Program-made: the position numbers and the translations under genes
The notes under the pieces: generated by a model
Database searches by the model: none
What the model was told of the DNA's origin: nothing
Seen by the model: only the letters and a program-made list of their open reading frames with translations
In this document: one piece after another, positions 22,043 through 40,547 of the stretch
Layout: every line of letters begins with the position of its first letter
Position numbering within the stretch: position 1 is the first letter of the stretch
Assembly (NCBI GenBank): GCA_029941865.1
Contig: JAPYTO010000032.1
Location: 1 to 40,547 of the forward strand
Direction of reading: 5' to 3'
Origin: Fuerstiella sp.
GTDB taxonomy: Bacteria; Planctomycetota; Planctomycetia; Planctomycetales; Planctomycetaceae
DNA: 40,547 nucleotides

Positions 22043-23125
22043 ATGAATCCCGCAACGGAATCAAAGCGCGTGCCGCAGACCGAGCGACCTACAGGAATTG
22101 AACATTGGATCGGGCTGCCCGCGATAAAGAAGAAGAGACTGCAGATTACTGGCGTTGCTGCAGATGGGCAGAGCCGCAATGGATTTCGTGTGCTGGCGAC
22201 GCTGTTCGCTGCTCTTGTATCCACCACCGCATTCGCACAGGACACCCCGGACTACTATCGTGCCAACTGCATGAACTGCCACACAATCGGTGGTGGCCGG
22301 TTGACGGGGCCTGACCTGAAGGACGTCACGAAGCGTAAGGATGCCGAATGGCTGATCGGATTCATGCAGAATCCCAAAGCCGTCATCGACAGTGGGGATG
22401 CTTACGCCACGAAGATCACCGAAGCTTCTCGAGGCGTCGTCATGCCAACTCTTCCCGGGATGACTCGCTATCGTGCAGAGCAAATCCTGAAACTGATCGA
22501 AGCGGAATCGAAGCTGGAAAAATCACAGTTTCAGGGCATCAAGATCTCCAACAAGCCCTTTACTGACGCCGATCGAGCTGCCGGACGTGCCATTTTCACA
22601 GGGTCTCGCGGGTTGAAGAAGGGCGGAGCCGCCTGCAACGCCTGCCACAGTATTTACGACCTTCCTGCCCTGGGTGGCGGACATCTGGGGCCGGATCTGA
22701 CAAAGATCTATGAACGCCTCAAGGGACGAAAGTCGCTGAGCGCATGGCTGATGGCTCCGGCGACAGAAACCATGCAGCCCATTTTCAAAAATCGACCGCT
22801 GGAAGCGGATGAAATTCATGTGCTGGCGGCCTACTTCGAGGATGCCGCTAAGCACAGCGAGACAGATGCATCTGTTAATCGAATGGCGTTCTTACTGCTG
22901 GGGCTCGGACTGGCGACATCCGTCATTTTCCTGTTCGACCTTATCTGGAAATCTCGCTTCCATTCCGTGCGTCGCCCGCTGGTGGATTCGATCACCAACG
23001 CGATTCATCGGGGAACGCCGCAGCAGAACATCAAATCGGATTCAGGCGTACCGCCGATTTTATCAGCGACTCTGGTTGGCACAGAAGCCAGCAACGAACA
23101 CGAATCGGAACAAGGTGACCAATGA
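22043..23125 (+). CDS. narC: Membrane-anchored diheme cytochrome c, NarC-like first gene of the nar unit
   Basis: This 360-aa protein has an unusually long polar N-terminus before a signal-like hydrophobic segment (about 48-65, ending AFAQ). An in-frame GTG at 22190 would give a more usual signal peptide, but its ribosome site is no better. Heme motifs are CMNCH (C76, C79, H80) and CNACH (C198, C201, H202). A transmembrane anchor spans about 281-301, with a cytoplasmic tail of about 60 residues. In Thermus thermophilus a membrane-bound cytochrome c, NarC, is the first gene of narCGHJI and is needed for nitrate respiration; position and type match here. The stop overlaps narG by four bases. 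The name is by analogy of context. Confidence 0.72.
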
Positions 23126-26100
23126 GCATTATTCGCGACGCTATCGCGTGGATCCGCGACGAGATCAATCCCGAAGGCCGTCAGTGGGAAGAGTTTTACC
23201 GCAACCGCTGGACGCACGACAAAGTTGTTCGCAGCACGCACGGCGTCAACTGCACCGGCGGCTGCACGTGGAACATCCATGTCAAAGACGGCATCGTCAC
23301 CTGGGAAATGCAGGGACTGGATTATCCGCTTCTCGAAGACGGCATCCCACCTTACGAGCCGCGAGGCTGCCAGCGTGGGATTTCGTTCAGCTGGTATCTG
23401 TACAGTCCGCTGCGAGTAAAGTACCCGTACATTCGAGGTGTGTTGCTCGATCTATGGAAGCAGGCACGCGCGGATCATTCCGATCCGGCCGATGCATGGA
23501 AGAGTCTGGTTGAAGATCCGGAGAAACGTCGTCGTTGGCAGCGAGCTCGCGGTAAAGGCGGACTGCGACGGACGGACTGGGCCACGGCACTGGAGATCAT
23601 TTCGGCTTCGATGGTGCAGACCATCAAGAAGCATGGCCCCGATCGAATAGCCGGCTTCTCTCCGATTCCGGCCATGTCGATGATCAGCTATGCGTCGGGT
23701 GCCCGGCTGATGCAACTCATCGGTGGCATCTCGCTGTCGTTTTACGACTGGTACTGCGACCTGCCGCCCGCTTCTCCGGAAACCTGGGGAGAGCAGACGG
23801 ACGTTGCGGAAAGCGCAGACTGGTATCACGCCAAGATGCTGGTTTCGATGGGTGCCAACATCGGCATGACACGAACGCCGGACTGCCATTTTCTTGCGGA
23901 AGGGCGTCACAACGGCACCAAGTTGTGGGTGTTCTCGCCCGACTTCAATATGGTTGCCAAGTATGCCGACGAATGGGTGGCTGTGAATGCCGGTCAGGAC
24001 GGTGCGTGGTGGATGGCCGTCAATCACGTACTGCTGACTGAATTTCATCATCAGAAAAAGACGGACTACTTCCTTCAGTACGCGAAGAAATACACAGACT
24101 CCCCGTACCTTGTCGAAATCACAACAGACGCCAATGGCGTCATTCGACCGGGCCAGTTGCTGCGTGCGGGGCGACTGGACAAGTATGCCGCTGAGGAGAA
24201 CGGCGACTGGAAATTCCTGATGTGGGACGAGGCAGCCCACGAACCGCGGATGCCGATGGGCAGTTCCGGATTTCGCTGGGGCAAAGAACAGGGCAAGTGG
24301 AATCTGCTGCTGAAGGACGGCATGGATGGCAGCGACATTCAGCCGCAGTTGTCGTTCCTCGAAGACCACGACGATGTTATCGATGTCGAACTCGACGACT
24401 TTGGCGCAGGCAAGGCGTCACATCGCGGAGTGCCAATCAAAACCCTGAAGACAAAAGACGGCACAGAAGTTCACGTCACCACCATCTACGACCTGCTGAT
24501 GGCTCAGTACGGCGTAAACCGAGGGCTGTCCGGCGAGTACCCGGCTGACTATGACGATGAGAACGCTCCGTTCACGCCTGCGTGGAGCGAAAAGTACACA
24601 GGCATTAGCCGGGATGTACTGATCCGGTTTGCCAGAGAATGGGGCACGACGGCCGAACACACCAACGGCAAGTGTACCATCCTGATCGGTGCCGGCATCA
24701 ATCACTGGTATCACGCCAATCTGATGTATCGAGCCGGCATTCACGCGTTGATGTTCTGCGGCTGTGTTGGAGTCAACGGTGGCGGGCTGGCTCATTATGT
24801 GGGACAGGAAAAACTGGCACCGGCCGAGTCGTGGGCCTCGATCGCTATGGCGAAAGACTGGTTCCCGCCGTCACGTCTGCAGAATGCTCCCAGCTGGCAT
24901 TATGTCCACACGGATCAGTGGCGTTACGAAAAAGACTTCACCGACTATCACACAGTGCCTCAGAATCCGTTGGAAAACAGTACGGCTCATGGCCATACGA
25001 TGGACATGCAGGTGCGAGCGGTCCGACAGGGCTGGCTGCCCTTTTATCCGCAGTTTCCGGAAAACCCGATTGAAATCGTCAAAGAGGCTCGGGCCGCCGG
25101 TGCGGATTCAACGGAGGAGATCATTGCCTGGATCGTTGACCGGCTGAAGAAGAAGGAGATGAAATTCTCTGTCGAGGATCCGGACGCCGAAGAGAACTGG
25201 CCACGTGTCTGGTTCATCTGGCGCGGCAACGCGTTGATGGCCAGTGCAAAAGGGCACGAGTACTTTCTGCGACATTACCTTGGCACGCACGACAACGCGG
25301 TCGGCGAAGATCTGGCAGAGGGCTCGGTTAAAGAAGTGGAGTGGCACAAAACGGCTCCGCAGGGAAAGATGGATCTCGTTGTCGATCTCAACTTCCGCAT
25401 GGACACATCCGCCCTGTATTCGGACATTATTCTGCCGGCCGCGACGTGGTATGAAAAAGCGGACCTGAATTCGACGGACATGCACAGCTTCATCCATCCG
25501 CTGTCCAAAGCGGTCCCGCCGTGCTGGGAGTCCAAAAGCGACTGGGCAATTTTCAAAGAGATTGCGAAGAAGTTTTCCGAAGTTGCTGAACCGCACTTCC
25601 CCGAACCTGTGGAGGACCTGGTCGTCGCTCCGCTGGCTCATGATTCTGCGGCCGAGATTGCTCAGCCCAGCATGGATCAATGGATTCGTAGCGAAGGGGA
25701 AGCCATTCCCGGCAAGACCATGCCCAACTTCGCAATTGTCAAACGCGACTATAAGAACGTCTACAATCAGTATGTCTCATGGGGACCGATGGTTCGTAAG
25801 AACGGGCTGGGGGCTCACGGCACGAAGTATTCGATTCAGGAAGAATACGACGAATATATTGAGACTCACCGCACCGAAACGTGGGACGGCAACACCTACC
25901 CATCACTCAACCGAGACGTCGATGTGTGTGATGCGATTCTGCATTTTGCAACTGTCACAAACGGCGAATTGGCGTACCGGTCTTACAAGAACATGGAAGA
26001 ACGGACCGGACTACCACTGGCACAGTTTGCCAAAAAAAGTCGCAGCGTCCGCACATCTTACAAGGACATTCAAAGCCAGCCTCGGCGATTCATCAACAGC

Positions 26101-26784
26101 CCGATGTGGTCGGGATTGATCGAAAACGGTCGAACCTATTCCCCGTTTACCTACAACGTGGAAGGGATGGTTCCCTGGCGCACCCTGACCGGGCGGCAGT
26201 CGTTGTATCTGGACCATCCTGTGTACATCGACTTCGGCGAACATCTGCCGACCTACAAGCCAAAACCGCTGCCAACGCAGTATGCCGATCTGCAGTTCAC
26301 CGAAAACGGAGAAACCACAGGGCCGGTCATTATGCTCAACTTTCTGACTCCACACGGCAAGTGGCACATCCATTCCACGTATGGCGACAACCAGCGGATG
26401 ACCACACTTTCCCGAGGCATTTATCCGCTGTGGATGAATGACAAGGAAGCCGCGGCGATGGAGATTGCGGACAACGACTGGGTGGAAATATTCAATGATA
26501 ACGGAGTCGTCGTGACACGAGCCATCGTGAGCTCACGTATCCCGCCCGGCATATGCATGCAGTACCACGCGCCGGAACGAACTCACGGCATTCCGTTATC
26601 GCCGCTGCGAAAGAATCGCCGCGCTGGTGGGCATAACAGCCTGACTCGAACTCGACTGAAGCCGAACTTCATGATCGGCGGATACGGCCAGTTCACGTAT
26701 CACTTCAATTACTGGGGACCGGTCGGATGCAATCGCGACACACATCTGCTGGTCAGAAAACTGCCGGGCGAACCGGTGTATTAA
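23122..26784 (+). CDS. narG: Respiratory nitrate reductase, alpha (catalytic) subunit NarG
   Basis: This 1220-aa protein is close to the usual NarG length (E. coli about 1247). The FS0 iron-sulfur site is H40, C44, C48 and C83 ([12 protein letters not shown] ... RGCQRG). The segment [17 protein letters not shown] carries D213, the counterpart of the molybdenum ligand D222 of E. coli NarG. There is no twin-arginine signal, so the active site should face the cytoplasm. NarG reduces nitrate to nitrite at a Mo-bis-MGD cofactor with electrons from NarH. It begins within the stop of the cytochrome gene (ATGA overlap). Nitrobacter-type nitrite oxidoreductase belongs to the same branch, so the reverse reaction cannot be excluded from sequence, although NarK and NarI neighbours favour reduction. 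Confidence 0.96.
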
Positions 26785-26887: not shown

Positions 26888-28381
26888 ATGCAGGTTCGAT
26901 CACAGATTTCAATGGTGTTTCATCTCGATAAGTGCATCGGGTGTCACACCTGCAGCGTCGCCTGCAAGAACATATGGACGGACCGTAAAGGTGCGGAATA
27001 CATGTGGTGGAACAACGTCGAAACCAAGCCCGGCACCGGTTTCCCTACCAAGTGGGAAGATCAGGAGAAGTACAAAGGCGGCTTCGAAAAAAATGCCGCT
27101 GGTGAACTGGAAATCAAGTCCACCAGCAAAACGAAGATCGTCCCCAACATCTTCCACAATCCGCACATGCCCAGCATGGACGACTACTACGAACCCTGGA
27201 CCTACGACTATCAGAACCTGTTCAACGCGAAAGAAGGATCCGATCAGCCAACGGCCGAACCAATCTCCATGATCGATGGCAAAAAGATAGATGTGCAGTC
27301 GGGGCCCAACTGGGACGACGATCTGGGCGGTTCACCCATCTATGCAGAGAACGATCCGAATCTGGAGGGACTGACGGAAGAGCAGCGTCTGCAGCTCAGT
27401 TCTGTTGAGCGACTGGTGTTCTTCTATCTGCCTCGCATCTGCAATCACTGTCTGAATCCGTGCTGTGTGGCATCGTGTCCTTCCGGGGCACTCTACAAGC
27501 GGGGCGAAGACGGCATCGTGTTGATTGACCAGAAGAAGTGCCGAGCCTGGCGGTCCTGCGTCGCGGCATGTCCCTACAAAAAGACGTACTTCAACTGGTT
27601 CACTGGAAAAAGTGAAAAGTGCATCCTCTGTTTTCCGCGACTGGAAACCGGGCAGGCTCCGGCGTGCTTCCACTCGTGTGTTGGTCGTATTCGGTATCTG
27701 GGCGTCCTGCTGTATGACGCCGAAAAACTGGAGGAGGTTGCAAAACTGCCTGACGACGAACTGGTCGAGGGGCAGCGAGACATGATTCTTGATCCGCATG
27801 ATCCCGAAGTCATTGCGGAAGCAATGAAAAACGGCGTCTCTGAAGGAGTAATCGAAGCGGCTCAGAATTCTCCGGTCTACAAATTTGTCATTGAGTGGAA
27901 GATCGCTCTGCCGCCGCATATCGAGTTCCGTACGCTGCCAATGCTGTTCTACGTACCGCCGATGTCGCCCGTGCAGGCCAGCAAGGTGGAAGACACGATC
28001 ACTCACAACAGCGAGAACCTGTTTCACGACATCGACGATTCCCGAGTGCCAATGAAGTTCCTGGCCAACCTGTTCGGTGCCGGACACGAAGGCGTGGTCC
28101 GATATGCACTGGCCAAACAGAAGGCGGTGCGCTGGCATCGGCGAGCGGAAACGGTTGGCGACATCGACCGCGAAACAGCGGATCGCATGCTGCGTGAAGC
28201 CAACTGCACTCGTGAAGAGGCAGAGGCCATCTACAAGCTCACTGCGCTGTGTAAGTTCGAAGACCGTTTTGTCATTCCACCGATGCACCGCGAACAGGCC
28301 ATTGAAATGATGAAGGAACCACATGAACACCGCGAAGAAGTTGGTTTTGGCTTCGTGGGTGCGCCAAGGAGAGGCGTTTAG
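26888..28381 (+). CDS. narH: Respiratory nitrate reductase, beta (iron-sulfur) subunit NarH
   Basis: This 497-aa protein (E. coli 512) has four cysteine clusters for three [4Fe-4S] and one [3Fe-4S] centres: C16-x2-C19-x2-C22-x3-C26; CNHCLNPCC...SCP; CRAWRSCVAACP, in which Trp replaces the second Cys as in true NarH; and KCILCFPR ... CFHSCVGRIRYLG. It passes electrons from NarI haem to NarG on the cytoplasmic side. No signal peptide is present, as expected. A GCGGAA site precedes the ATG at about 6 nt. The Trp variant and the YFNW and GRIRYLGVLLYD segments distinguish it from the ferredoxin-like domain of ActB further downstream. Confidence 0.96.
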   Translation: MQVRSQISMVFHLDKCIGCHTCSVACKNIWTDRKGAEYMWWNNVETKPGTGFPTKWEDQEKYKGGFEKNAAGELEIKSTSKTKIVPNIFHNPHMPSMDDYYEPWTYDYQNLFNAKEGSDQPTAEPISMIDGKKIDVQSGPNWDDDLGGSPIYAENDPNLEGLTEEQRLQLSSVERLVFFYLPRICNHCLNPCCVASCPSGALYKRGEDGIVLIDQKKCRAWRSCVAACPYKKTYFNWFTGKSEKCILCFPRLETGQAPACFHSCVGRIRYLGVLLYDAEKLEEVAKLPDDELVEGQRDMILDPHDPEVIAEAMKNGVSEGVIEAAQNSPVYKFVIEWKIALPPHIEFRTLPMLFYVPPMSPVQASKVEDTITHNSENLFHDIDDSRVPMKFLANLFGAGHEGVVRYALAKQKAVRWHRRAETVGDIDRETADRMLREANCTREEAEAIYKLTALCKFEDRFVIPPMHREQAIEMMKEPHEHREEVGFGFVGAPRRGV

Positions 28382-28466: not shown

Positions 28467-29315
28467 ATGGAAAAAAGTTTCCTGAGTGGCACCTCCGCTG
28501 CTCTGTTTGAGCTAACGCCTGAAGACGTAAACAAAATCGCTCCTGTTCGTGCGGGAGATGAACTTCCTGACATCTACTTTATCTGCGTCAGAGAGAACCT
28601 AATGGCTGGTCCCAGAACACTACGGTCCCTGAGCCGTCTGCTCGTCTATCCTGACGAACAAACGGTCGAAGCGGCGGAATTGCTGTACATCATTCTGCAG
28701 AACGAACTGCCGGAGGCTGCCAGGAAGATGTCCCGCTTCGGGGCGTACGTTGAACAGCATGAACTGTGGGAAGTCGAAGAAGCCTTCACGGGCACATTCG
28801 ACGTCAATCCCGCATGTGCGCTGGAAGTCGGCTGGCATCTGTTCGGAGAAGAGTACTCTCGCGGCCTGTTCATGGTGCGGATGCGTGAAGAACTCAGGAA
28901 GTACGATCTGGCAGAATCAAACGAACTGCCGGACCACATTACTCACGTGCTGGCCATCATTGGCGCCATGCCCGACGAAGAGGCCAAACGATTCGTCACC
29001 GCCTGTGTTTTGCCGGCCGTCAGAAAAATGCTGCACGCCTTTGAGGAAAACGACAGCCCGTATGGTGACGTCATTTCCTGCATGGCGTTGATTCTGCACC
29101 ACGTCTGGGGCGAAGGAGAACTACTCAGCGATGGCTCGGAATCCGAAAACTCCGACGACCGCACAAATTCCGATGGCGTCGACCTGTTGCACGCATTTCC
29201 CGTTGCGGACGTTGGCTGCGGTTCTGACGGCTGCGGAGTTGGTTGCGGCAGTTCAGAGCCCAAGAACCTCGTGCAACTCTCGACCAACATTCCTCCCAAA
29301 AGGAGTGAGCAATAA
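28467..29315 (+). CDS. narJ: Nitrate reductase maturation chaperone NarJ (TorD/NarJ family) with Cys-rich tail
   Basis: From the ATG at 28467 the protein is 282 aa. An in-frame ATG at 28602 (SD-like GAGAG) aligns better with known NarJ starts (SRLLVYPDE follows) and would give 237 aa, so the first 45 residues are doubtful. NarJ family features are LSRLLVYPD, the YVEQHELWEVEEAFTGTFDVNP segment in place of the usual YVDTFD motif, and a helical C-terminal part. It is a cytoplasmic chaperone that inserts Mo cofactor into NarG before docking to NarI. Beyond the core is an acidic linker and a glycine/cysteine tail with C251, C256 and C260 (VGCGSDGCGVGCGSS), not usual for NarJ and possibly metal-binding. 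Its stop overlaps narI by one base. Confidence 0.85.
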   Translation: MEKSFLSGTSAALFELTPEDVNKIAPVRAGDELPDIYFICVRENLMAGPRTLRSLSRLLVYPDEQTVEAAELLYIILQNELPEAARKMSRFGAYVEQHELWEVEEAFTGTFDVNPACALEVGWHLFGEEYSRGLFMVRMREELRKYDLAESNELPDHITHVLAIIGAMPDEEAKRFVTACVLPAVRKMLHAFEENDSPYGDVISCMALILHHVWGEGELLSDGSESENSDDRTNSDGVDLLHAFPVADVGCGSDGCGVGCGSSEPKNLVQLSTNIPPKRSEQ

Positions 29316-29995
29316 TGAGCGAAGGCATTCTGAATCAGTTTCTGTTCATTGCGCTGCCGTACGTCTGCCTGTTCACGTTCTTTCTGATGACGATCCATCG
29401 GTATCGGGCACAGTCGTTTTCGTATTCGAGTCTGTCGAGTCAGTTTCTGGAGAACAAGCATCACTTTTGGGCAGTCGTGCCGTTTCATTACGGCATTCTG
29501 GCGGTGACGGCGGGGCATCTGATCGCATTTCTGATCCCGTGCAGCATCCTCGCGTGGAATGGCCATCCGCTGAGACTCTACATCCTGGAAGTCTCAGCGC
29601 TCGCCTGTGGACTGCTGACACTGATTGGCCTGGTGGCGATCGTCATCCGTCGCGGCACAACCACTCGTATCCGAAAGGTCACATCGCCGACGGACTGGAT
29701 CCTGTTTGCAATGCTGCTGGTTCAGACGATCAGCGGTGTGGCCATCGCGATTCTTCACCCGTGGGGTTCGTCGTGGTTTGCCACCAACATGTCGCCGTAT
29801 CTGTGGTCTGTCTTCAAGCTGAACCCGGACATCAGCTACGTCGTGGCCATGCCGCACCTGGTCAAAACACACATCATCCTGGCATTTCTGACAATCGGCT
29901 TTTTCCCGTTCACTCGTCTGGTGCACCTTCTGGTCATTCCCAATCCCTATCTCTGGCGGAAGACACAGGTCGTCCGCTGGTACGGTCAAAAATGA
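29315..29995 (+). CDS. narI: Respiratory nitrate reductase, gamma (diheme cytochrome b) subunit NarI
   Basis: This 226-aa protein (E. coli 225) has five membrane helices. Histidines suitable as haem b ligands lie in helix 2 (FHYGIL and GHLIAF, about residues 52 and 62) and helix 5 (MPHLVKTH and FTRLVHLL, about 183-210), as in NarI. NarI oxidises quinol at the periplasmic side and sends electrons through two b haems to NarH. AGGAG precedes the ATG, which shares one base with the narJ stop. Its presence indicates a membrane-bound, quinone-linked, energy-conserving enzyme. Confidence 0.95.
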   Translation: MSEGILNQFLFIALPYVCLFTFFLMTIHRYRAQSFSYSSLSSQFLENKHHFWAVVPFHYGILAVTAGHLIAFLIPCSILAWNGHPLRLYILEVSALACGLLTLIGLVAIVIRRGTTTRIRKVTSPTDWILFAMLLVQTISGVAIAILHPWGSSWFATNMSPYLWSVFKLNPDISYVVAMPHLVKTHIILAFLTIGFFPFTRLVHLLVIPNPYLWRKTQVVRWYGQK

Positions 29996-30029: not shown

Positions 30030-31607
30030 ATGAGCAGCGACGGAGTAAACACAACCCCTGAACGGACACCGGTCGATACACGAACGGCGTGGTGGATTCT
30101 GGGCGTGAATACGTTTGCTTTCACGATTTGCTTCGCCGCCTGGATGATGTACGGCGTACTGGTCACCTGGCTGATCAACAACGGTCTATACGACTGGGGA
30201 CCTTCCGAGATCGGCTGGCTGATTGGCATTCCAGTGCTGACCGGCGCAGTTTTTCGACTGCCGCTTGGCATCGCTACCGACAAGTGGGGAGGCCGTATCG
30301 TTTACGGACTGTTGCTGCTGTTCTGCGCGGTTCCGATGTATCTCACCAGTTATTGCAACGGGTATTGGCAGTTTTTTGCAGCCGGACTTGGGTTTGGGTT
30401 ATGCGGAGCCAGCTTTGCCGTGGGAATTGCCTATACGTCAGTCTGGTTTCCTCAGCACCAGCAGGGAACGGCACTGGGAATCTTTGGAGCTGGCAATGCG
30501 GGTGCCGCTCTGACCAGTTTTGGAGCTCCCACCATTCTCAACTGGCTGACGAACGACGGCACCAACATCGACGCGTGGCGCACTCTGCCAAAGATCTATG
30601 CGGCGCTGCTGCTGACAACCGGCGTTGTTTTTATATTAACCACGAAAACTCGTCTTGCTCCGGGCAGTGCGGGCAAGAGTCTGGCACAACGGCTCGAACC
30701 ACTGCGACATATGCGAGTCTGGCGATTCGGGCTCTACTACTTCTTTGTGTTTGGCGGTTTCGTGGCATTGGCTCAATGGCTCGTGCCGTACTACGTCAAC
30801 GCATATTCCACGACGGTCGTCCTCGCGGGAGTCCTGGCAGCCTGCAACAGCCTGCCTTCCGGCATTATTCGAGCCGCAGGAGGCTGGATGTCTGACAGGC
30901 TCGGTGCGCGCACTGTGATGTACTGGGTGTTGGGTGCTTCGCTGATTTGCTGCATTCTGCTGATCGTCCCGCAAATGGACATTCGTTCACCGGGCAGCGG
31001 CATCATGGCGAAGGCTCCGGGCACAGTTATCAGCGTCACCGACGAAGAGATTGTCGTGGCAACGGCTGCCGGAAATCAACACACCTACACGCTTCTCAGG
31101 AAGAGCGCTGAACTTGTCAGCGACGATGAACGGAAGTCGCGCGTGCTTGTCCTGCCGCGTCAAATGTCCTGGCAGGAATCTGTTGTGGAAGTCGGGCAGA
31201 CCGTCGCTAACAAAGATTTGCTGGCGCGCGGAATTACGCAGATCTACTTTCAGGCCAACATCTGGATCTTCACGGTGCTGAGCATGATTATCGGCGCGGT
31301 CATGGGGATCGGCAAGGCAGCTGTTTACAAGCACATCCCTGACTACTTTCCCAACGATGTGGGCGTGGTCGGCGGAATCGTGGGAGTGCTCGGTGGCCTG
31401 GGCGGATTCGTCTGCCCGGTCATTTTTGGATACCTGTTGAAAGCCACCGGACTATGGACGTCCTGCTGGATGTTCTTCGCGGTTCTGGTGACCGTCTGCC
31501 TGGTCTGGATGCATCTGGTGATCCAGAAAATGCTGAAAACCGAAGCTCCGGAACTGTCGCGGCGGATTGAATCCTCAGAGGCAACAATCATCAGCGGTCA
31601 ACAATAA
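30030..31607 (+). CDS. narK1: NarK-type nitrate/nitrite transporter (MFS) with inserted periplasmic domain
   Basis: This 525-aa MFS protein of the nitrate/nitrite porter family has 12 predicted helices. R76 (FRLPLGI) and R281 (GIIRAAGGWMSDRLGAR) are near the conserved basic residues, and GLGFGLCGASFAVG with FGAGNAGAALTSFG is the family's glycine-rich signature. Unusual is a polar insert at about 316-408 between helices 9 and 10, predicted periplasmic: GTVISVTDEEIVVATAAG ... VEVGQTVANKDLLARG, with the look of a biotinyl/lipoyl-type beta-sandwich. Type 1 NarK are mostly nitrate/proton symporters. It follows narI after 34 nt in the same unit. The symbol is by context. Confidence 0.87.
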   Translation: MSSDGVNTTPERTPVDTRTAWWILGVNTFAFTICFAAWMMYGVLVTWLINNGLYDWGPSEIGWLIGIPVLTGAVFRLPLGIATDKWGGRIVYGLLLLFCAVPMYLTSYCNGYWQFFAAGLGFGLCGASFAVGIAYTSVWFPQHQQGTALGIFGAGNAGAALTSFGAPTILNWLTNDGTNIDAWRTLPKIYAALLLTTGVVFILTTKTRLAPGSAGKSLAQRLEPLRHMRVWRFGLYYFFVFGGFVALAQWLVPYYVNAYSTTVVLAGVLAACNSLPSGIIRAAGGWMSDRLGARTVMYWVLGASLICCILLIVPQMDIRSPGSGIMAKAPGTVISVTDEEIVVATAAGNQHTYTLLRKSAELVSDDERKSRVLVLPRQMSWQESVVEVGQTVANKDLLARGITQIYFQANIWIFTVLSMIIGAVMGIGKAAVYKHIPDYFPNDVGVVGGIVGVLGGLGGFVCPVIFGYLLKATGLWTSCWMFFAVLVTVCLVWMHLVIQKMLKTEAPELSRRIESSEATIISGQQ

Positions 31608-31631: not shown

Positions 31632-33224
31632 ATGGCAAACACGCCGGAATGCTGGAACACAGAAGACGAAGCCTTCTGGGAATCCGACGGCAAGCGGATC
31701 GCGAATCGAAACTTATGGGTTTCGATCCCGAATCTGTTGTGTGGGTTTTCCGTATGGCTGTACTGGGGCATGATCGTCAAGACCATGCAGAAATTGCACT
31801 TCGCGAACACAGATCTGTTCAACTTCACGTTCCGCAACGACGGTCAGCCATATGACGAAGCGGGTTATCGAGCACTCCTGTTCACCCTGCCCGCCGTTGC
31901 CGGACTGGCCGGCGCAACTTTACGAATTCCGAATTCGTTTATGATCGCCATTTGCGGCGGCCGCAACGTGAAGTTCATGACGACCGTGCTGCTGATCATC
32001 CCGGCCGCCCTGGCCGGATTCGCACTGCAGAATCCCAACACCTCATTTGGTGTGTTTATCACGCTGGCGGCTCTGTCGGGAGTGGGCGGAGGAGCGTTCG
32101 CTTCGAGCATGTCGAATATTTCGTTCTTCTTTCCCAAACGCATGCAGGGACTCGCGCTGGGATTGAATGCCGGACTTGGAAACACGGGCGTCAGCGTGAT
32201 GCAGTTTCTGATTCCCTGGGTCATCACGTTTGGCCTGTTCGGCGGCATCGGCGGTGATCCGCAGACGTTCATCGTGGATGGCGAAACGCAGAGCCTGTGG
32301 ATTCAGAACGCGGCACTGGTCTGGGTCCCCATTATGACGGTCCTTGTCATCATGACATGGATCTTCATGAATAATCTGCCACAGCACAAATGTGGTTCGG
32401 CTCCGGTTGCCATCGGAAAATATCTGTGGCTGCAGATGATTGGCTTCCTGGGAGCGGCCATCGGTGTTGGCATGCTGATCTTTGTGGAACTGCCCATCCC
32501 CGAACTGCTGAGAATCTTTCTCGTCCTGATTGTTGCCGTGGCGACCACAATGCTGGGCATGAAGTTCATGACTCCGAAAACGATACAGGAACCGCTTAAC
32601 AAACAGTTCGCAATCTTCAGCAATAAACACAACTGGGTGATGACGTGGCTGTACGTAATGACATTCGGATCGTTCATTGGATACGCGAACGCCTTTCCAA
32701 AGCTCATCGACGATATTTTCGTGACGCCGACCAACGGATTGGTGACGTCCCATTACATCTGGATCGGAGCATTTGTGGGAGCTCTGATTCGTCCGGTCGG
32801 TGGCTGGCTGTCGGACAAACTCGGCGGTGCCCGAGTCACTCAGTGGGACACATGGGTGATGGTGGCATCCACGATTCTGGCGGGATACCTGGTTTCACTG
32901 GCCGGAAAAACTGACAAGCCGGAACAGTACTTCATCCCGTTTCTGATCACGTTCATCGTGCTGTTTGCGACAACCGGCATCGGCAATGGTTCAACGTTCC
33001 GGATGATCCCGACCATCTTCTCAAAAGAACAGGCGGGCCCGGTGCTCGGCTGGACATCCGCCATCGCGGCATATGGTGCCTATCTGATTCCCAAGATTTT
33101 CGCCACGCAGATCAAAGCCGGCACGCCGGAATACGCCCTTTATGGATTCGCTGTTTACTACGCGAGTTGCCTTGTTGTGAACTGGTGGTTTTATGCCCGT
33201 AAGAACGCAGAAATTAAATGTTAG
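31632..33224 (+). CDS. narK2: NarK-type nitrate/nitrite transporter, second copy (antiporter-like)
   Basis: This 530-aa MFS protein has family signatures FTLPAVAGLAGATLRIPNSFM (the Arg corresponds to R89 of E. coli NarK), GVGGGAFASSMSNISFFFPK, ALGLNAGLGNTGVSVMQ, FGSFIGYANAFP and IRPVGGWLSDKLGG. It lacks the inserted domain of the preceding transporter and resembles NarK2/NarU nitrate-nitrite antiporters, which export nitrite in exchange for nitrate. Paired symporter and antiporter genes are known in Paracoccus (fused) and Thermus (narK, narT). The ribosome site before 31632 is weak. It ends 25 nt before actA, linking the nitrate and complex III blocks. Confidence 0.88.
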   Translation: MANTPECWNTEDEAFWESDGKRIANRNLWVSIPNLLCGFSVWLYWGMIVKTMQKLHFANTDLFNFTFRNDGQPYDEAGYRALLFTLPAVAGLAGATLRIPNSFMIAICGGRNVKFMTTVLLIIPAALAGFALQNPNTSFGVFITLAALSGVGGGAFASSMSNISFFFPKRMQGLALGLNAGLGNTGVSVMQFLIPWVITFGLFGGIGGDPQTFIVDGETQSLWIQNAALVWVPIMTVLVIMTWIFMNNLPQHKCGSAPVAIGKYLWLQMIGFLGAAIGVGMLIFVELPIPELLRIFLVLIVAVATTMLGMKFMTPKTIQEPLNKQFAIFSNKHNWVMTWLYVMTFGSFIGYANAFPKLIDDIFVTPTNGLVTSHYIWIGAFVGALIRPVGGWLSDKLGGARVTQWDTWVMVASTILAGYLVSLAGKTDKPEQYFIPFLITFIVLFATTGIGNGSTFRMIPTIFSKEQAGPVLGWTSAIAAYGAYLIPKIFATQIKAGTPEYALYGFAVYYASCLVVNWWFYARKNAEIKC

Positions 33225-33249
33225 GTAACGTTGACCCAAAGAGATCCTA

Positions 33250-33903
33250 ATGCGCCAAATCATTGTCACTATCGCATTGCTGATCGGGCTGTTTTTCAGC
33301 TTGATCGTGCTGGCGTCCGGCATGAGTGACTGGCGATTGCCCGACAATCAGCAGGGCTACTCGCCACCTCAGCCGATCAGTTACTCACACCGCCTGCATG
33401 CGGGAGAACTGGGTATCGACTGTCGCTTCTGTCACACCGCCGCAGCACACGGCCAGCACGCCGGAATCCCGTCGACCGACGTCTGCATGAAGTGTCACAA
33501 ATATGTGACCAGCTCCTTTGGCGCGCTGCAGGATGAACTTACGAAGGCGGACGAGGAAAAACGCAAGCCGAAAATGATTGTCTCAGACGAACTGCAGAAA
33601 CTGTACGACACTCTTGGTCTGGAAGATCCCAGGACACCCAACCCTGACGGCGATGCAAAGTCGATTCCGTGGGTGAAGATTCACAACCTGCCGGACTTTG
33701 TCAGCTTTGACCACAGTGCTCACGTAACAGCCGGCGTGGAATGCCAAAAGTGTCACGGGCCGGTGGAATCCATGGAACGGGTGCGGCAATTTGAATCGTT
33801 GTCGATGGGTTGGTGCATTAACTGCCACCGCGAATCGCCCGAAAAAGGAATCAACGGCCACGCCGTGAATGCGTCTTTGAACTGCTCGGTGTGCCACCAC
33901 TAA
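33250..33903 (+). CDS. actA: Alternative complex III subunit ActA, pentaheme cytochrome c
   Basis: This 217-aa protein has an N-terminal signal anchor (about 5-24) and five CxxCH motifs: CRFCH, CMKCH, CQKCH, CINCH and CSVCH. That is the number in ActA of Rhodothermus and Flavobacterium. Characteristic flanks are ISYSHRLHAGELGIDCRFCHTAA and FDHSAHV...ECQKCHGPVE. In ACIII this periplasmic subunit takes electrons from the iron-sulfur subunit and hands them towards ActE or soluble cytochromes. It starts 25 nt after the transporter gene and ends 10 nt before actB. It resembles cytochrome c7/triheme-type multiheme proteins generally, but the operon context settles the call. Confidence 0.93.
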   Translation: MRQIIVTIALLIGLFFSLIVLASGMSDWRLPDNQQGYSPPQPISYSHRLHAGELGIDCRFCHTAAAHGQHAGIPSTDVCMKCHKYVTSSFGALQDELTKADEEKRKPKMIVSDELQKLYDTLGLEDPRTPNPDGDAKSIPWVKIHNLPDFVSFDHSAHVTAGVECQKCHGPVESMERVRQFESLSMGWCINCHRESPEKGINGHAVNASLNCSVCHH

Positions 33904-33913
33904 ATCTGATAAA

Positions 33914-36900
33914 ATGAACAGCAAACCCACCAACCAGAACGAACTGAGCCATTTCGGCACCCGAAATTCCGTGCCCGTGGGCCCCATTCTGCAGGGCAAT
34001 GAGGCGTTAGGGATCAACCGTCGCCGGTTTCTCGAAGCGGCCGGATTCACGTTCACTTTAGCAGCGTTGAACGGATGCAGCCGTCCGGAAGCTGAGCTCG
34101 CGCTGCCGCTGGTCGATCAGCCGGAAGGCCTGATTCCCGGTCAGACGCAGTCGTATGCCTCTACCTGTGCAGGTTGTCCGGCGGCCTGCGGATTACTGGT
34201 GGGCGTCCGCGACGGACGTCCGCTGAAGATGGAAGGCATGCCCGAACATCCGTTGTCAAAGGGTGGGCTGTGTGCCGTTGGCCAGGCTCTGCCACTGGGA
34301 CTGTACGACAGTCATCGCCTGCAGTATCCGCTGCAACACGGCGAGCAGTCCGACTGGAAGAAATTGGATCAACAGATCAGACAAACGCTGGACAGTATTG
34401 CTGATTCCGATGGGGCCGTTCGATTTGTCACACCGACGATTACCAGCCCCACGCTGCAGGCATCCATCAATGGATTTCTCAAGCGATTCAAAGACGCTCG
34501 CCATATCACGTTTGATTCGGTCAGTTCATCGGCGATTCTCGACGCACACGAAAAGACGCATGGGTCGCGACTGCTGCCACACTACCTGCTGGACAAGGCG
34601 AAACTGATTGTATCATTCGGAGCCGATTTTCTGGGAACGTGGATCTCGCCTGTGGAATTCACGGCCGCTTGGCGAGTCGGTCGAGTGCCCACCGAAGAAC
34701 ATCCGGTGATGTCGTACCACGTGCATTTCGAAGGACAGATGTCGCTGACTGGCAGCAACGCCGATCGCCGATACAGAGTGGCTCCGGACGAATACGGGAC
34801 CGTCCTCAATCACCTGTATCTTCAGCTGGCCGAGCGGTCCGGGCAATCCCCGAATCGCGAAGGAGTTGCCGGTTCGCCTGTTCCTGAGGCCGACCTCTCG
34901 GCACTGGCAGACCGGCTGTGGGATGCTCGTGGAAAAAGCGTGATTCTTTGTGACAGTCAGGACGTTGCGGTTCAGGTGGTCGTGAACACCATCAATCATC
35001 TGCTGGGCAACTATGGTACGACACTCGATATCGCTCGCCCCAGTCGGCAACGGCAGGGCAACGACCGTCAGGTGCTGAAACTCATCGACGATCTGAATGC
35101 CGGCACGGTGTCCGCGTTGTTCGTTGCAGGTACGGACCTGACGCATAATCTTCCGGACCGCGACAAACTGGCGGAAGCCATCAGCAGGGTTCGGCTGGTC
35201 GTGAGCATGGCCGAGCGGGAAGACGATTTTGCATCGTTGGCTCACTTCGTCTGTCCCGATCAGCATCCACTCGAATCCTGGATGGATGCCGAGCCAATCA
35301 GCGGACTGGTCAGTCTCTCGCAACCCTTGCTCCAACCACTCGGCGAAACTCGGTCGATTCTGGAAAGCCTTGCCCGCTGGTCGGGCAGCGAAGATTCCGA
35401 GTACGACATTCTGCGATCGTCGTGGGAGAAGAACATCCTGCCGCGCGTCGATGCCGGGGCATTTCGTGAATTCTGGGACCAGGCGGTGCACGATGGCTTT
35501 GTCGACGTGAAGCCTGTGGAAACAACGGTCGGCGAATTCAAAACTGCCGCAGTAAGCCTGGCCCCCGGTGCAACGACAACCGGGGACTACTGCCTGACGC
35601 TCTATTCCCGCATCGGTTTAACCGACAGTCGTCACGCACACAACCCGTGGCTGCAGGAGCTGCCTGATCCAGTCACCAAAGTCACATGGGACATCTATGT
35701 CTGCCTTTCGCCGACGACAGCTGAGAAGCTCAAGCTGACCAATGGCGATGTCGTCCGCGTCAAAACGGGCGACGACGGATTGAGTATCGAACTGCCGGCG
35801 CTTGTTCAACGTGGTCAGCACGATCGAGTGATCTCAATCGCCCTGGGATACGGAGTCAAAGGCACCGATCGATTCGCCAACATCGGACCTCAGTGGTTCG
35901 AAGGTCGTCCCACGGTCGAAAAAGGAGAACTCGTCGGAAAAAACGCAGCTCCATTGATCATTAAGGGTGACGCCACTCTGCAATTTGTCCGCAGCGACGT
36001 TTCGATCAGCCCGACCGGGCAGCACCGTGAACTGGCGTCCACTCAGGAATATCACTCACTGGAAATCCCGCGCAACGTGGCCCCTCACGGTGCAGAAGTT
36101 CGAGACATCGTGCAGCTCACAACACTTCCTGCGTTCGCCAGGAATCCGGAATCCGGCAAGGCGGAGCTGCATTTTGATCCGGAAGTTCAGCTGTGGGCCG
36201 ACGATCACCCCCAGGAAAATCACAGCTGGGGCATGACGATCGACCTGAATATCTGCACGGGATGTTCAGCCTGTCTGGTCGCCTGCCAGTCAGAAAATAA
36301 TGTCCCCGTTGTGGGAAAAGATGAAGTGCGACGGCAGCGGGAAATGCACTGGCTGCGTATCGATCGTTACTACGCGGGCGACGATGACGACGTGCACGTG
36401 TCTCACCAGCCGATGATGTGCCAGCACTGCGATAATGCTCCGTGCGAAACCGTCTGTCCGGTGCTGGCGACTGTTCACAGCAACGAAGGTCTGAACGAAC
36501 AGGTCTACAACCGCTGCGTGGGAACACGGTACTGTGCCAACAACTGCCCGTACAAGGTGCGCCGATTCAACTGGTTTGAGTATCCGCACGAAGACTCAGT
36601 TTTGAACCTGGCACTTAACCCGGACGTTGCCGTGCGTTCGCGAGGCGTGATGGAAAAATGCTCGATGTGCGTACAACGCATCGAAGAAGCGAAGATCGAC
36701 GCCAAACGCCGAGGAGAACCGGTGGCCGATGGCGACATCAAAATGGCCTGCCAGCAGTCGTGTCCGGCGCAGGCCATCGTGTTCGGCGATTTGAACGACA
36801 CCGCCAGCAATGTTTACGCAGAGCAGGAAAACCCGCGCCGTTACGGTGTTCTGGAAGAATTCAATTTTCAGCAAAGCGTCTCTTACCTCCGCGTTGTGAG

Positions 36901-36946
36901 AAACCGGGACGATATTCAACAGGAGGATGGAGGTGAGCATGTCTGA
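33914..36946 (+). CDS. actB: Alternative complex III subunit ActB (molybdopterin-oxidoreductase-like plus ferredoxin-like fusion)
   Basis: This 1010-aa fusion has a Tat signal (N35-R-R-R-F-L) followed by a lipobox-like ALNGC (C55), so it is exported and possibly lipid-anchored. The N-terminal part (about 75-720) resembles the molybdoenzyme fold, with CAGCPAACG and [10 protein letters not shown] near 83-125. In ActB of studied complexes no Mo cofactor is bound. The C-terminal part (about 770-1000) is ferredoxin-like: [40 protein letters not shown], and [12 protein letters not shown] with [10 protein letters not shown]. These supply four clusters ([3Fe-4S] and three [4Fe-4S]). It mediates quinol-derived electron transfer to ActA. 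Ribosome site weak; stop overlaps actC by eight bases. Confidence 0.94.
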
Positions 36947-38378
36947 TTCGGACTCGTCACTCAGACCACCGCTCATCACAGGTGACAAAACACTTGGCGA
37001 TGTCACCCGTGATATCTGTGCGCCGATGGATCGCACTCCAACCAGCCTGTGGTATGCAGCGTTTTTTGTTTCACTGGCGGCTCTTATCATTGGCGTGGCG
37101 GCCGTGTGGTATCAGATCGCGACCGGCATCGGCACTTGGGGCCTGAACAAGACCGTGGGCTGGGCGTTCGACATCACGAACTTCGTGTTCTGGGTCGGAA
37201 TAGGTCACGCCGGCACTCTGATTTCGGCGGTGCTGTTTCTGTTCCGACAAAAATGGCGCACGGCAGTCAACCGATCAGCGGAAGCCATGACGCTGTTCGC
37301 GGTGATGTGTGCGGGAATCTTTCCGTTGATCCACATGGGGCGCCCGTGGCTGGCGTATTGGATGGGTCCGTACCCCAACACCCGAGGCTCGTTGTGGGTC
37401 AACTTTAAGTCGCCGCTGCTGTGGGACGTCTTTGCGATTTCCACCTATTTGGCGATTTCGGCAGTATTCTGGTACGTCGGTCTGATCCCGGACATGGCCA
37501 CCATTCGCGACCGCAGCAAACCTGGGCTGCGAAAACGTATCACATCGATTCTATCACTTGGCTGGGACGGGTCGGCACGCACATGGCATCGCTACGAAAC
37601 GGTATACATGCTGCTGGCCGGACTGGCCACTCCGTTGGTGTTTAGTGTCCATACGATCGTCAGCATGGACTTTGCCACGGCCGTAATCCCCGGCTGGCAC
37701 ACAACGATTTTTCCGCCGTACTTCGTCGCGGGAGCAATCTTCAGCGGCCTGGCGATGGTCACAACGCTGATGCTCATCGCTCGCAAAACGATGCGGCTGG
37801 AAGACTACATCACCGCGAAACACATCGAACGCATGTGTCTGCTGATGTTGTCCATGGGCTGCATCGTGGGGCTGGCCTATGCCACGGAATTCTTTATGGC
37901 AGCCTACAGCGGTAACGGTTACGAGCAGTTTGTGTTTCTCAACCGAGCACTCGGCCCGATGAGCTGGGCGTACTGGACTATGGTCACGTGCAACGTCATC
38001 GTCCCGCAAATACTGTGGTTTCCGAAGGTCCGAAAGTCCCTGCCAGCGGTGTTCGTGATCGTGATCCTGGTCAATGTCGGCATGTGGTTCGAACGTTTCG
38101 TGATTATCGTCACAAGTCTGCATCGTGACTTCCTGCCATCCAGTTGGGCGCATTACGTGCCGAGCACGATCGAGATCGCCACCTTGGTCGGCAGCTTTGG
38201 TCTGTTCTTCACCTGCTTCCTGCTGTTCTGTCGCATTGCTCCGGTGATCGCGATTGCCGAAATCAAAGGCGCCGGGCGGTTGAAGAAGTCTGACCTGTCG
38301 ATGACGACGTCCGAAGCACCGCAAACAATTCGTGCGCAGGCTGCCGTGCATGAGGCAGCGCTGACGGAGGCGCCGTAA
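36939..38378 (+). CDS. actC: Alternative complex III subunit ActC (NrfD/PsrC-like quinol-binding membrane protein)
   Basis: I choose the ATG at 36939 (479 aa) because GGAGGTGAGC gives it an excellent ribosome site; the ATG at 36927 lacks spacing from its AGGAGG. About ten membrane helices are predicted, with NrfD-type features such as [17 protein letters not shown] near 95, [10 protein letters not shown] near 130 and [16 protein letters not shown] near 245. ActC is one of two related membrane subunits (with ActF) of ACIII and carries the quinol site and a proposed proton path. It overlaps actB and precedes actD by 34 nt. Confidence 0.94.
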
Positions 38379-38412: not shown

Positions 38413-38946
38413 ATGAGTGCCCGAGTCCTGCTGGCCACGTTTGCCCACGAAGACGACCTGCTCGCCGCCACAACGGCAGTTCGTGAAAGCGGCCTGCGCA
38501 TTGTCGATGCCTTTACTCCTTACGCCGTCCATGGACTTGACCAAGCCATGGGGTTGAAGCCATCACGGCTGACGTGGGTGTGTTTCATCTGCGGTATGGC
38601 GGGCGCTCTGGGAATGCTTTGGTTTGAACACTGGACGGCATCCGTCGCATGGCCGATTGATGTCGGCGGCAAGCCATGGAACTCACTGCCTTCGGACGTT
38701 CCTGTTGCCTTCGAAGCCGCCGTCCTGCTGGCCGGGTTCGGTTCGGTGTTTGCATTGTTTGCCGTCAGTCGCCTGTTTCCCGGCAAGCAGTCCCACCCTA
38801 TCCGTCCGCGCATCACCGATGACCGGTTCGTCCTTGTCATTGACGAATCAGACGCCGCGCTTGACGTTCCGACCGTTCAGTTGATGCTCACGGAATTCAA
38901 CGTCGTCGAAACCGAAGAACAGGTCCGAAGCGGAGGACGATCATGA
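38413..38946 (+). CDS. actD: Alternative complex III subunit ActD (DUF3341)
   Basis: This 177-aa DUF3341 protein begins with a short soluble segment (LLATFAHEDDLLAATTAVRE) and has IVDAFTPYAVHGLDQAMGL, the hallmark of the family. Two membrane helices (about 54-72 and 96-117) and a small soluble end follow. ActD is a structural, peripheral membrane subunit of ACIII. Its last four bases overlap the actE start (ATGA), typical of this operon. Confidence 0.93.
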   Translation: MSARVLLATFAHEDDLLAATTAVRESGLRIVDAFTPYAVHGLDQAMGLKPSRLTWVCFICGMAGALGMLWFEHWTASVAWPIDVGGKPWNSLPSDVPVAFEAAVLLAGFGSVFALFAVSRLFPGKQSHPIRPRITDDRFVLVIDESDAALDVPTVQLMLTEFNVVETEEQVRSGGRS

Positions 38947-39752
38947 ACCTGACACGCATCAACGTCGTGCTGAGTGTGCTGCTGGCCATTGCGGCGACGC
39001 TGACCATCGCTATGGAGGTCGATCACACGCAACTGAACGTCGAATTCCTGCCGGACATGAAACGCTCACCCGCGTTCGACGCCTTCGCCGCGAACCCAGT
39101 GCTGCCCGGCGGTCGCACGCAGCAGGCACCAGTCCCCGGCTCAATCGCGCGAGGCGACCTGCCACTTTATTACTCAGCGACAAAAGAAGACGCCATCCGC
39201 GCCGGTGAAGAACTGCAGAATCCGTTCGCCGTTGCTGAAGCCATCAATCCGCCACCGGCCGCCGATGAAGCCGCACGGCCAGCCGATTCTGAACACACGA
39301 CGGCAGCGACCCCGCCACAGGACTCACCAACGGAAGCGTCTGCTACGCCACAGGCCAGACTCGATGCTTCCATCCAGCGCGGAGCACTCGTTTATGGCGT
39401 GTTCTGCGTGTCCTGCCATGGGGCGAGTGGTGCCGGGGATGGCCCGGTCACAAAACGCGGATTCCCCCCGCCGCCGCCTTTGCCCACAGGCAAGTCTGTG
39501 CTGATGAAGGACGGCCAGTTGTTCCACATTCTGACGTACGGGCAGGGCAGCATGTCGTCGATGGCCGCTCAACTGAAGCGAAACAGCCGCTGGGACGTCA
39601 TCGACTACGTCCGCAGTCTGCAGCAGGGAGCCGCACAGGCTGCGGCGCAGAACCCCGTCGCGGTGCCAGACACAGCAGGCGAACCGGCGGAGACTGGGGA
39701 GCCAGACGGGTCCACCATCAGCTCCGAGCCGATTAACGGAAGCAAACCATGA
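38943..39752 (+). CDS. actE: Alternative complex III subunit ActE, monoheme cytochrome c
   Basis: This 269-aa protein has an N-terminal signal or anchor (about 5-24), a Pro/Ala-rich linker (about 98-140) and one cytochrome c domain with CVSCH (near 156-160), GASGAGDGPVTKRGFPPPPP and a GQGSMSSM methionine-ligand region. ActE is the monoheme subunit of ACIII that passes electrons to a soluble carrier or an oxidase. The low-complexity linker and C-terminal tail (about 235-269) are longer than needed for the fold. Start and stop overlap neighbours by four bases each. Confidence 0.92.
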   Translation: MNLTRINVVLSVLLAIAATLTIAMEVDHTQLNVEFLPDMKRSPAFDAFAANPVLPGGRTQQAPVPGSIARGDLPLYYSATKEDAIRAGEELQNPFAVAEAINPPPAADEAARPADSEHTTAATPPQDSPTEASATPQARLDASIQRGALVYGVFCVSCHGASGAGDGPVTKRGFPPPPPLPTGKSVLMKDGQLFHILTYGQGSMSSMAAQLKRNSRWDVIDYVRSLQQGAAQAAAQNPVAVPDTAGEPAETGEPDGSTISSEPINGSKP

Positions 39753-40547
39753 AACTTAAACAACTCTCGGTCTCGCCGGATTTCAAACGCAAGCTCATGA
39801 TTGCTACGGGCGTCGGTGCTGCCGTTCTGGCGATCACAGCTGTGGTGTCTCCCGACCGGGCATGGGGCAACCTGTTCGTCGTGGCTTACTACCTGATTAC
39901 GCTGGGGCTGGGCGGGGCCCTGTTCATTGCTCTGACCACCGTCTGCGGCGCCGGCTGGAGCACTGCGTTTCGCCGCGTTCCGGAAGCGATGACCGGCCTG
40001 CTGCCTGTTGCTGGAGTCATCCTGCTGAGCGTGCTGGCCCTGCGATTGCCGCAATACGGCTGGCATCATCACGGTACAGGCGACGCGGGCACATTCTGGT
40101 TCAAGGAATTCTGGCTGCAACCGTCGTTCCTTGCCGCTCGCGCCGTTGGCTACATTGTGCTGTGGATTGCTTTCGCCAGACGCCTGGTCCGTAAATCGCG
40201 GACTCAGGATCAGCTGATGAACCCGCCCCCCGCCCCAGGCGTTCCAACGTCGATTGTGTTTCTGTTTGTGTTCGCGTTCACGATTTCACTGGCCGGCGTG
40301 GACTGGATCATGGCTCTGGAACCGATGTGGTTCAGCACCATGTGGGGCGTCTATCAGTTTTCCGGACTGATTATGGGAACGCTCGCCACCATCATCATCA
40401 GTTGCATCGTGCTGCGACGACTCGGTCCGCTGAGCGAAGTATTCCGAGACGAACACCTGCACGATCTTGGCAAATTGCTGCTTGGTTTCAGCTGTTTCTG
40501 GATGTACATCTGGTTCAGTCAATACATGCTGATCTGGTATGCGAACA
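39749..40547 (+). CDS. actF: Alternative complex III subunit ActF (partial, C-terminus cut by window edge)
   Basis: Reading from the ATG at 39749, which overlaps the actE stop by four bases, gives 266 codons without a stop before the right edge. At least six hydrophobic helices are visible, with features such as NLFVVAYYLITLGLGGALF near 41-59, RRVPEAMTGLLPV near 75, ISLAGVDWIMALEP near 180 and CFWMYIWFSQYMLIWYAN at the cut. This fits ActF, the second large NrfD-like membrane subunit of ACIII, normally about 400 aa or more. What follows beyond the window (cytochrome oxidase genes or further act genes) would help decide the role of the cluster. Confidence 0.9.
   Translation, partial: MKLKQLSVSPDFKRKLMIATGVGAAVLAITAVVSPDRAWGNLFVVAYYLITLGLGGALFIALTTVCGAGWSTAFRRVPEAMTGLLPVAGVILLSVLALRLPQYGWHHHGTGDAGTFWFKEFWLQPSFLAARAVGYIVLWIAFARRLVRKSRTQDQLMNPPPAPGVPTSIVFLFVFAFTISLAGVDWIMALEPMWFSTMWGVYQFSGLIMGTLATIIISCIVLRRLGPLSEVFRDEHLHDLGKLLLGFSCFWMYIWFSQYMLIWYAN

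Follow-up and report, generated by a model that had tools for sequence, protein, structure and literature searches.

A predicted alternative complex III encoded in one gene unit with a Thermus-type nitrate reductase in Fuerstiella sp. and in related loci

Alternative complex III (ACIII) has mostly been described in aerobic respiratory chains. What does it do when its genes continue a nitrate reductase operon? The question is raised by a contig of the planctomycete Fuerstiella sp. (GenBank assembly GCA_029941865.1, contig JAPYTO010000032.1). Its 40547 bases, analysed as a whole and called the window below, make up one entire contig (C32) of an 8.04 Mb draft genome in 612 contigs (G000). On the plus strand it carries a unit of thirteen genes, namely a gene for a c-type cytochrome, narGHJI, narK1, narK2 and actABCDEF (names assigned from Pfam, NCBIfam and PDB matches). 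We incline, with slightly more belief than doubt, to the view that this nar-act unit is a nitrate-respiration cassette, in which a Thermus-type narC-GHJI-narK-narK operon has been extended by a complete, dedicated ACIII that probably feeds NarC. The sequence comparisons described below indicate that the arrangement is real and conserved, and they make the mechanism plausible.

The layout of the unit is compact. In the nar part, gaps of 103 bases separate narG and narH, 85 narH and narJ, 34 narI and narK1 and 24 narK1 and narK2; in the act part there are 10 bases between actA and actB and 34 between actC and actD. The remaining neighbours overlap, by 4 bases at the cytochrome c gene and narG, 1 at narJ and narI, 20 at actB and actC and 4 each at actD and actE and at actE and actF. 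The junction between narK2 and actA measures 25 bases (33225..33249, plus strand). The initial annotation had placed all these genes on one strand, which our assignments bear out with the proviso that actF is incomplete; its 25-base junction agrees with our measurement, and its ‘many’ four-base overlaps come down to three. The start codons of the cytochrome c gene and of narJ are uncertain, since homology to the family copies begins at residues 45-51 of the former and homology of the latter begins at residues 35-50, so that the gap between narH and narJ may exceed 85 bases. A promoter between 33224 and 33250, which according to the initial annotation would refute its reading, was not listed by our promoter and terminator scan, nor was a terminator-like site at this junction. 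Across 21500-40547 the scan gave five promoter-like sites, all on the opposite strand, with 8.2 expected by chance on both strands.

Could the meeting of nar and act genes be peculiar to one assembly? Profile and sequence searches covered 148 genomes, the window's own included. At an E-value of 1e-60 narK2 was found in 11 of them, and in all ten besides the window's genome actA comes next on the same strand; in an eleventh relative (G085) a divergent narK precedes actA. A narK therefore precedes actA in each of the 12 family genomes where the unit was found, an arrangement that the initial annotation had proposed to look for in planctomycetes; 10-72 bases separate the narK stop codon from the first homologous ActA codon. 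An assembly misjoin, of which the initial annotation had warned, is ruled out by the recurrence of the junction in these 12 genomes and in distant loci. In L028 and L033, where the gaps between narK2 and actA are among the longer ones (66 and 72 bases), an inverted repeat lacking a T run was seen by eye; it may act in RNA processing or stability.

Full-length NarI was found in nine of the 148 genomes, all of which also hold nar-linked ACIII; seven weak partial matches (E-values 3e-10 to 6e-6, long frames) were excluded from this count. Seven of the nine genomes have narI and actD on the same strand at a distance of about 8 kb; in G050 the unit reaches a contig end, and in G027 its genes are divided between contigs. 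Three genomes (G021, G043 and G079) have the junction and no NarI match; in these the contig starts or stops at narK1 or inside narK2. ActD is far more common, with 102 matches in 89 of the 148 genomes. A chance neighbourhood of two operons is ruled out because NarI goes with nar-linked ACIII in nine of nine cases, because the subunits of this ACIII form one group and because the other ACIII examined are mostly linked to oxidases. Sequence searches found neither narK2 nor NarI in the seven other genomes of the same genus, and three of these carry an oxidase-linked ACIII instead. The distribution of the unit is therefore patchy, and we infer that it was gained by transfer.

Beyond the family, an alignment of nar-linked ActC was compared with genome contigs, and the best 80 of at least 584 matching loci were taken, a choice that favours the nar-linked clade. 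Thirteen distant loci among these 80 (ActC identity 66-74%) fall with the window's clade. In all nine of them with enough upstream DNA, act is preceded by nar genes on its own strand. The sources of these nine are Neomarinimicrobiota, Bacteroidota (three), Acidobacteriota, ‘Deltaproteobacteria’ placed in Myxococcota (two), Planctomycetota and one unclassified bacterium; L105, L107 and L109 were too short for context, and in L106 the DNA does not reach upstream of actB. The spacing varies, and in L110 actA follows narI directly, at a distance of 3 bases, without an intervening narK. Judged from gene order and sequence grouping, the nar-act unit is conserved across five phyla.

In an ActC tree with 34 other rows of the planctomycete class, 25 rows of nar-linked ACIII grouped together with support of 91 in the Shimodaira-Hasegawa-like approximate likelihood ratio test (SH-aLRT). 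In a joint ActB and ActC tree the same 25 rows lie on one side of a branch with SH-aLRT 100, which separates them from 27 further rows of the planctomycete class (coxA in view for 23) and 19 rows of Bacteroidota (cox genes in view for 16). The joint tree was built by a quick method with no bootstrap, 22 of its rows have unusual composition and three are half filled or less; L065, L070, L092, L094, L095, L099 and L103 were omitted from it. Among the 27 planctomycete-class rows kept, L074, L091, L100 and L101 have no coxA in view. The Bacteroidota rows were chosen from the other ActC loci; L143, L156 and L180 show no cox genes, and L156 and L180 have DNA past actF. One locus considered for the group of the window, L153, was dropped because it falls on the Bacteroidota side of the joint tree. 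Planctomycetota also contribute to the group through metagenome-assembled genomes (MAGs), at L105, L109 and L111.

How does this group differ in context from other ACIII? Of the 91 ActD matches outside the nar-linked clade, 36 were inspected: all 29 in the family and seven of the 62 found elsewhere in the class. A coxA gene is close by in 30 of the 36 (counted by hand, with probes taken from L080, itself one of the 30), in agreement with the statement of the initial annotation that ACIII genes usually lie near haem-copper oxidase genes. The other six are L074, L086 and L091, on contigs that end early, and L099, L100 and L101, where no cox match was found. The last three share a long frame spanning ActC and ActD (655-697 aa), with neither nar nor cox found nearby, and possibly represent a third ACIII context. 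The window's DNA stops within actF, so the proposal of the initial annotation to look for cox genes after actF was followed up in relatives. The same probes found no cox gene in the nar-linked loci of the family, including the seven genomes with DNA beyond actF (G070, G036, G042, G022, G021, G027 and G050), nor was a cox gene found after actF in the ten distant loci with at least 2.3 kb there. By these sequence criteria the nar-act unit is distinct from the oxidase-linked ACIII that prevails in the family.

The act genes have the features of a true ACIII, with the order actABCDEF and a fused ActB. The window's actA (33250..33903, plus strand, as are all genes of the unit) encodes a pentahaem cytochrome c with five CxxCH motifs and a Cytochrome_C7 match; five haem motifs are present in all 21 ActA copies examined. 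ActA matches c7/c3 families, and QrcA only under its cut-off. The fused MopB-like and Fe-S subunit is encoded by actB (33914..36946), which matches subunit B of the ACIII structures 6f0k, 6btm, 6lod and 8k9e (E-values of at most 4.1e-158), and the NrfD-like subunit for quinol and the ion path by actC (36927..38378; 6btm_C, 1e-190). We compared ActC with a list of residues for quinone binding and two ion half-channels, taken from a table in the accessible part of PMC8076601; all 23 listed quinone-site and ion-path residues are kept in each of nine nar-linked ActC, the window's included. Next comes actD (38413..38946; PF11821, 170 bits), the sole ActD found in the G000 assembly, and actE (38943..39752; Cytochrome_CBB3), for a monohaem cytochrome c with one CxxCH motif, as in all 16 ActE copies found among 21 loci. 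The last gene, actF (39749..40547; 6f0k_F, 1.9e-33), is truncated because the window ends at the contig end, and the DNA beyond is out of view here; in seven relatives actF is complete, at 385-395 aa. No NrfA-type catalytic cytochrome was found in the unit, and no NrfA family was among the Pfam and NCBIfam matches. The act genes are accordingly predicted to encode a real alternative complex III with quinol:cytochrome c oxidoreductase activity.

The nar part begins with the narC-like gene (22043..23125), whose product has a Pfam Cytochrom_C match, two CxxCH motifs and a hydrophobic stretch near the C-terminus. This dihaem cytochrome and its Thermus counterpart at the matching operon position share 27% identity across 215 aa, and two haem motifs are present in all six NarC copies found among the 21 loci. 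A dihaem cytochrome c homologous to NarC thus stands first in the operon, as in Thermus-type NarCGHI. The alpha subunit gene narG (23122..26784) scores 1509.7 bits with TIGR01580 (cut-off 1084) and narH (26888..28381) 660 bits with TIGR01660 (cut-off 524); their products are 61% and 59% identical to Thermus NarG and NarH. The chaperone gene narJ (28467..29315) is above the cut-off of PF02613 and, with 56.8 bits, slightly below that of TIGR00684 (59.35). It is followed by narI for the b-haem quinol subunit (29315..29995; TIGR00351 above cut-off) and by two genes for nitrate/nitrite transporters of the major facilitator superfamily (MFS), both with MFS_1 matches: narK1 (30030..31607; best NCBIfam NarK match 170 bits, below the cut-off of 311.7) and narK2 (31632..33224; NarU 289 and NarK 265 bits, both below cut-off). 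In a tree of NarG and NarH, 16 act-linked rows lie on one side with support 100/100; Thermus is placed next to them, and five further references were included. This tree has 22 rows, of which six are references (one a long branch) and six are under half filled, and one plasmid NarH in the 60-80% identity band was left out; it demonstrates the linkage, not the presence of act genes beside every NarG of the clade. By homology and gene order, we assign the nar part to the Thermus kind.

The alignment of NarI shows all four haem-ligand histidines kept, and Gly65 is kept in the act-linked copies save for one Ala. At the position of Lys86 of the Escherichia coli protein, which we take to be a quinol-site residue (the PDB has entries for a K86A mutant), all 17 act-linked copies have Arg and the four others outside Thermus have Lys; the alignment has gaps near this position. 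This is a hint, not proof, that act-linked NarI handles quinol differently.

According to the accessible text of PMC7694296, Thermus NarC is a membrane-bound dihaem cytochrome that is required for NarG maturation, interacts with NarI in two-hybrid tests and has been proposed to replace complex III during denitrification; mesophile nar operons are said there to be without NarC. For the planctomycete unit we envisage that, under nitrate and little oxygen, ACIII would oxidise menaquinol and move ions, and that electrons would pass from ActB to ActA, ActE and on to a periplasmic c-type cytochrome. The acceptors that the unit encodes are NarC and Nar. We infer the step from ACIII to NarC: NarC would be the most likely receiver because it is the sole further c-type cytochrome in all six copies with visible upstream DNA (all of one family) and because the unit is not consistently accompanied by a nitric oxide (NO)-forming nitrite reductase or by NosZ. 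Given that Thermus NarC interacts with NarI, electrons may enter NarGHI via NarC as well as directly from quinol. Nitrate reductase would then hold the position that cytochrome oxidase has in ACIII-oxidase units, and more charge would therefore be moved per nitrate. A further step, tentative and to us rather doubtful, is that ACIII, NarC and NarGHI form one respiratory supercomplex, with electrons running from quinol through ACIII, NarC, NarI and NarG to nitrate. If true, nitrate would be respired in a cytochrome c-dependent way, with more charge moved for each nitrate than in the classical Nar loop, and the genes for it would have spread between phyla as a cassette.

Which other partners could such an ACIII have? 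We searched 24 genomes of the nar-linked ACIII clade, 12 from the family and 12 identified via the distant loci; in three of the latter (behind L106, L107 and L109) the DNA does not show whether nar lies next to act. Several points weigh against a cassette in which ACIII feeds NarC. Nar probably still oxidises quinol directly, since the haem ligands and Gly65 of NarI are kept, and the NarI arginine may bind quinol as lysine does. NarC is visible in the six family copies only, as no distant locus extends upstream of narG. In L108, from a Neomarinimicrobiota MAG, about 0.8 kb lie between narK2 and actA, and a multihaem cytochrome gene two genes past actF encodes a possible ACIII receiver. COX1-family genes occur in 24 of the 24 genomes, so that ACIII could simply feed an oxidase, and the accessible text of PMC10732223 reports oxygen reductase genes downstream of such clusters in five instances. 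Single gene absences count for little here, since most of the 24 genomes are drafts. These oxidase genes, together with the usual linkage of ACIII to oxidases (30 of the 36 other loci) and a cbb3-like cluster in the window's genome that was named partly by eye, speak for an ACIII that partners a cytochrome c oxidase encoded elsewhere and is tied to nar by co-regulation at low oxygen. We hold this to be quite improbable: no oxidase gene was found beside the nar-linked ACIII clade, and in eight of the 12 family genomes (G021, G022, G027, G042, G050, G070, G079 and G085) a high-scoring COX1 gene shares a contig with a gene for cytochrome b of the bc family, about 10 kb away, so that the oxidase has a likely partner of its own. 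The other alternative of some weight, which we still rate as unlikely, has ACIII feed a separate periplasmic octahaem (Hao/Onr) or NrfA nitrite reductase, with the unit serving the conversion of nitrate to ammonium. The genes after actF in L108 (13882-16524, same strand) fit this, being a porin-like Alginate_exp gene and a gene for a 486-aa PF13447 multihaem cytochrome, as do the lack of any NO-forming nitrite reductase found in the 24 genomes and the proposal, in the accessible part of PMC5317091, that ACIII is a donor to epsilonHao in Caldithrix. Against it, tblastn found the multihaem gene in one fetched locus only; no whole-genome search was made for Hao, Onr or NrfA. Alginate_exp genes also follow actF in L113 and L022.

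The initial annotation had suggested that ACIII feeds periplasmic cytochromes for later denitrification steps, which we now regard as very unlikely. NirK was above its cut-off in none of the 24 genomes, with weak matches in five, and no full-length NirS was found in any; PF02239 exceeded a low cut-off in 13 of them by partial matches only, the best of which (43.6 bits over 148 of 368 positions) was not read as NirS. NosZ was above cut-off in three of the 24 and in none of the 12 family genomes. NO-forming denitrification is therefore not a common partner of this ACIII, and the suggestion is not supported. What favours it are, apart from the NosZ and PF02239 matches, long COX1 frames in some genomes, of the size of quinol-dependent NO reductase (a label given from length only), and the statement in the accessible text of PMC9270275 that the ACIII of some denitrifiers feeds nitrous oxide reduction. 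Scarcely credible, in our estimate, is the reversible Nar that the initial annotation had offered as another pairing: Nar would work as a nitrite oxidase, NarC would hand the electrons on to an oxidase, and ACIII would be driven in reverse so as to reduce quinone. The accessible part of PMC7694296 describes a very similar Nitrobacter cluster as a nitrite oxidoreductase acting via a NarC homologue; the two narK genes and the 61% NarG identity to Thermus fit nitrate reduction instead.

The initial annotation had also read the ACIII as a complex III replacement serving nitrate respiration. The conserved nar-act unit speaks for the link to nitrate respiration; ‘replacement’ goes too far, as cytochrome b of the bc/b6 family is encoded in 23 of the 24 genomes, including 12 of 12 in the family. 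This also rules out the idea, suggested by the single ActD, that ACIII is the sole complex III of the genome. The window's genome has one bc-family cytochrome b copy, beside a Rieske gene. The sole COX1-family match found in the same draft (C20 38636-39877; L034 10535-12076, minus strand) has one in-frame stop and looks like a cbb3-type ccoN; beside it we recognised by eye ccoO-like, cytochrome and globin-like genes, and a hybrid cluster protein is encoded there as well. The idea that cbb3 is the sole oxidase of this genome was given up: contig C84 stops at 26433, which is 1.4 kb after a cytochrome b gene, and in relatives a COX1 gene lies about 10 kb further on.

Some neighbouring genes deserve mention. 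Upstream of the unit the window has domains of planctomycete type (PSCyt1, PSCyt2 and PSD1), a gene for the iron-sulfur cluster repair protein RIC (7542-8285, minus strand; TIGR03652 above cut-off), which fits exposure to nitrosative stress, and a CCP_MauG dihaem peroxidase gene with a four-base overlap with the gene for a DoxX/DoxD-like membrane protein (15850-18284). Genes for Rrf2-type regulators lie near the nar-act unit in the window (18529-19188, minus strand) and in L023, L032 and L097, in L023 divergently from narC. A gene for MobB, of molybdopterin guanine dinucleotide synthesis, adjoins the unit in L026 (19525-19899, Pfam match) and, as identified by eye, in L023 (17479-18057), L028 (476-1180) and L032 (2791-3774). 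No FNR-like palindrome was found in six regions upstream of narC; TTGAC-like stretches were seen there, by eye only, in five relatives.

The arrangement has in part been published already, under another reading. As described in the accessible text of PMC10732223, MAGs from an Oslofjord subsea tunnel have the same six kinds of gene downstream of Nar genes in 13 instances; its authors could match the cluster to none of the complexes described and proposed that it is a nitrite reductase resembling NrfAH or belongs to the respiratory chain. We found no other report of nar-act linkage in the literature searched, which was mostly without subscription papers and in part accessible only as excerpts. 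The ActB family was known exclusively from aerobic respiration according to one survey (PMC10100899, accessible portion), and ACIII donating to periplasmic acceptors has been described as not clustered with cox (PMC9386147, accessible portion). With its link to NarGHI in five phyla, a distinct group of ACIII would provide a concrete and widespread example of ACIII outside oxygen respiration, and our reading would assign a function to the published cluster. If it is true, estimates of the energy yield of nitrate respiration would shift in planctomycetes and other uncultured bacteria; whether NarGHI receives electrons from complex III via NarC is a directly testable question.

Among the known systems close to the unit, the Oslofjord cluster has the same gene kinds in the same order, as far as the accessible text of PMC10732223 goes; the MAG OFTM341 of that work corresponds to L111, inside the nar-linked ACIII group. 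The present analysis differs in identifying the six genes as ACIII and in that no downstream oxidase was seen in our loci. Respiratory oxidase-linked ACIII (6F0K and 6BTM) shares the A-F subunit order, the fused ActB and the 23 ActC residues, whereas the planctomycete unit has nar upstream, no cox found downstream and an ACIII that forms a separate group in the ActB and ActC tree. The plasmid cluster of Nitrobacter hamburgensis (L250) likewise places act-type genes in an organism of the nitrogen cycle, but its ActC is 41.6% identical and its act genes are followed by an SCO-family gene and cox genes. Plasmid pAA3-7b of Thermus thermophilus has the order c-type cytochrome, narG, narH, TorD-family chaperone, narI and MFS transporter, and Thermus NarI also has Arg at the position of Lys86. 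No act genes occur in the Thermus narCGHJIKT region examined; as read from its genes, the planctomycete unit, unlike that of Thermus, combines NarC with a true ACIII.

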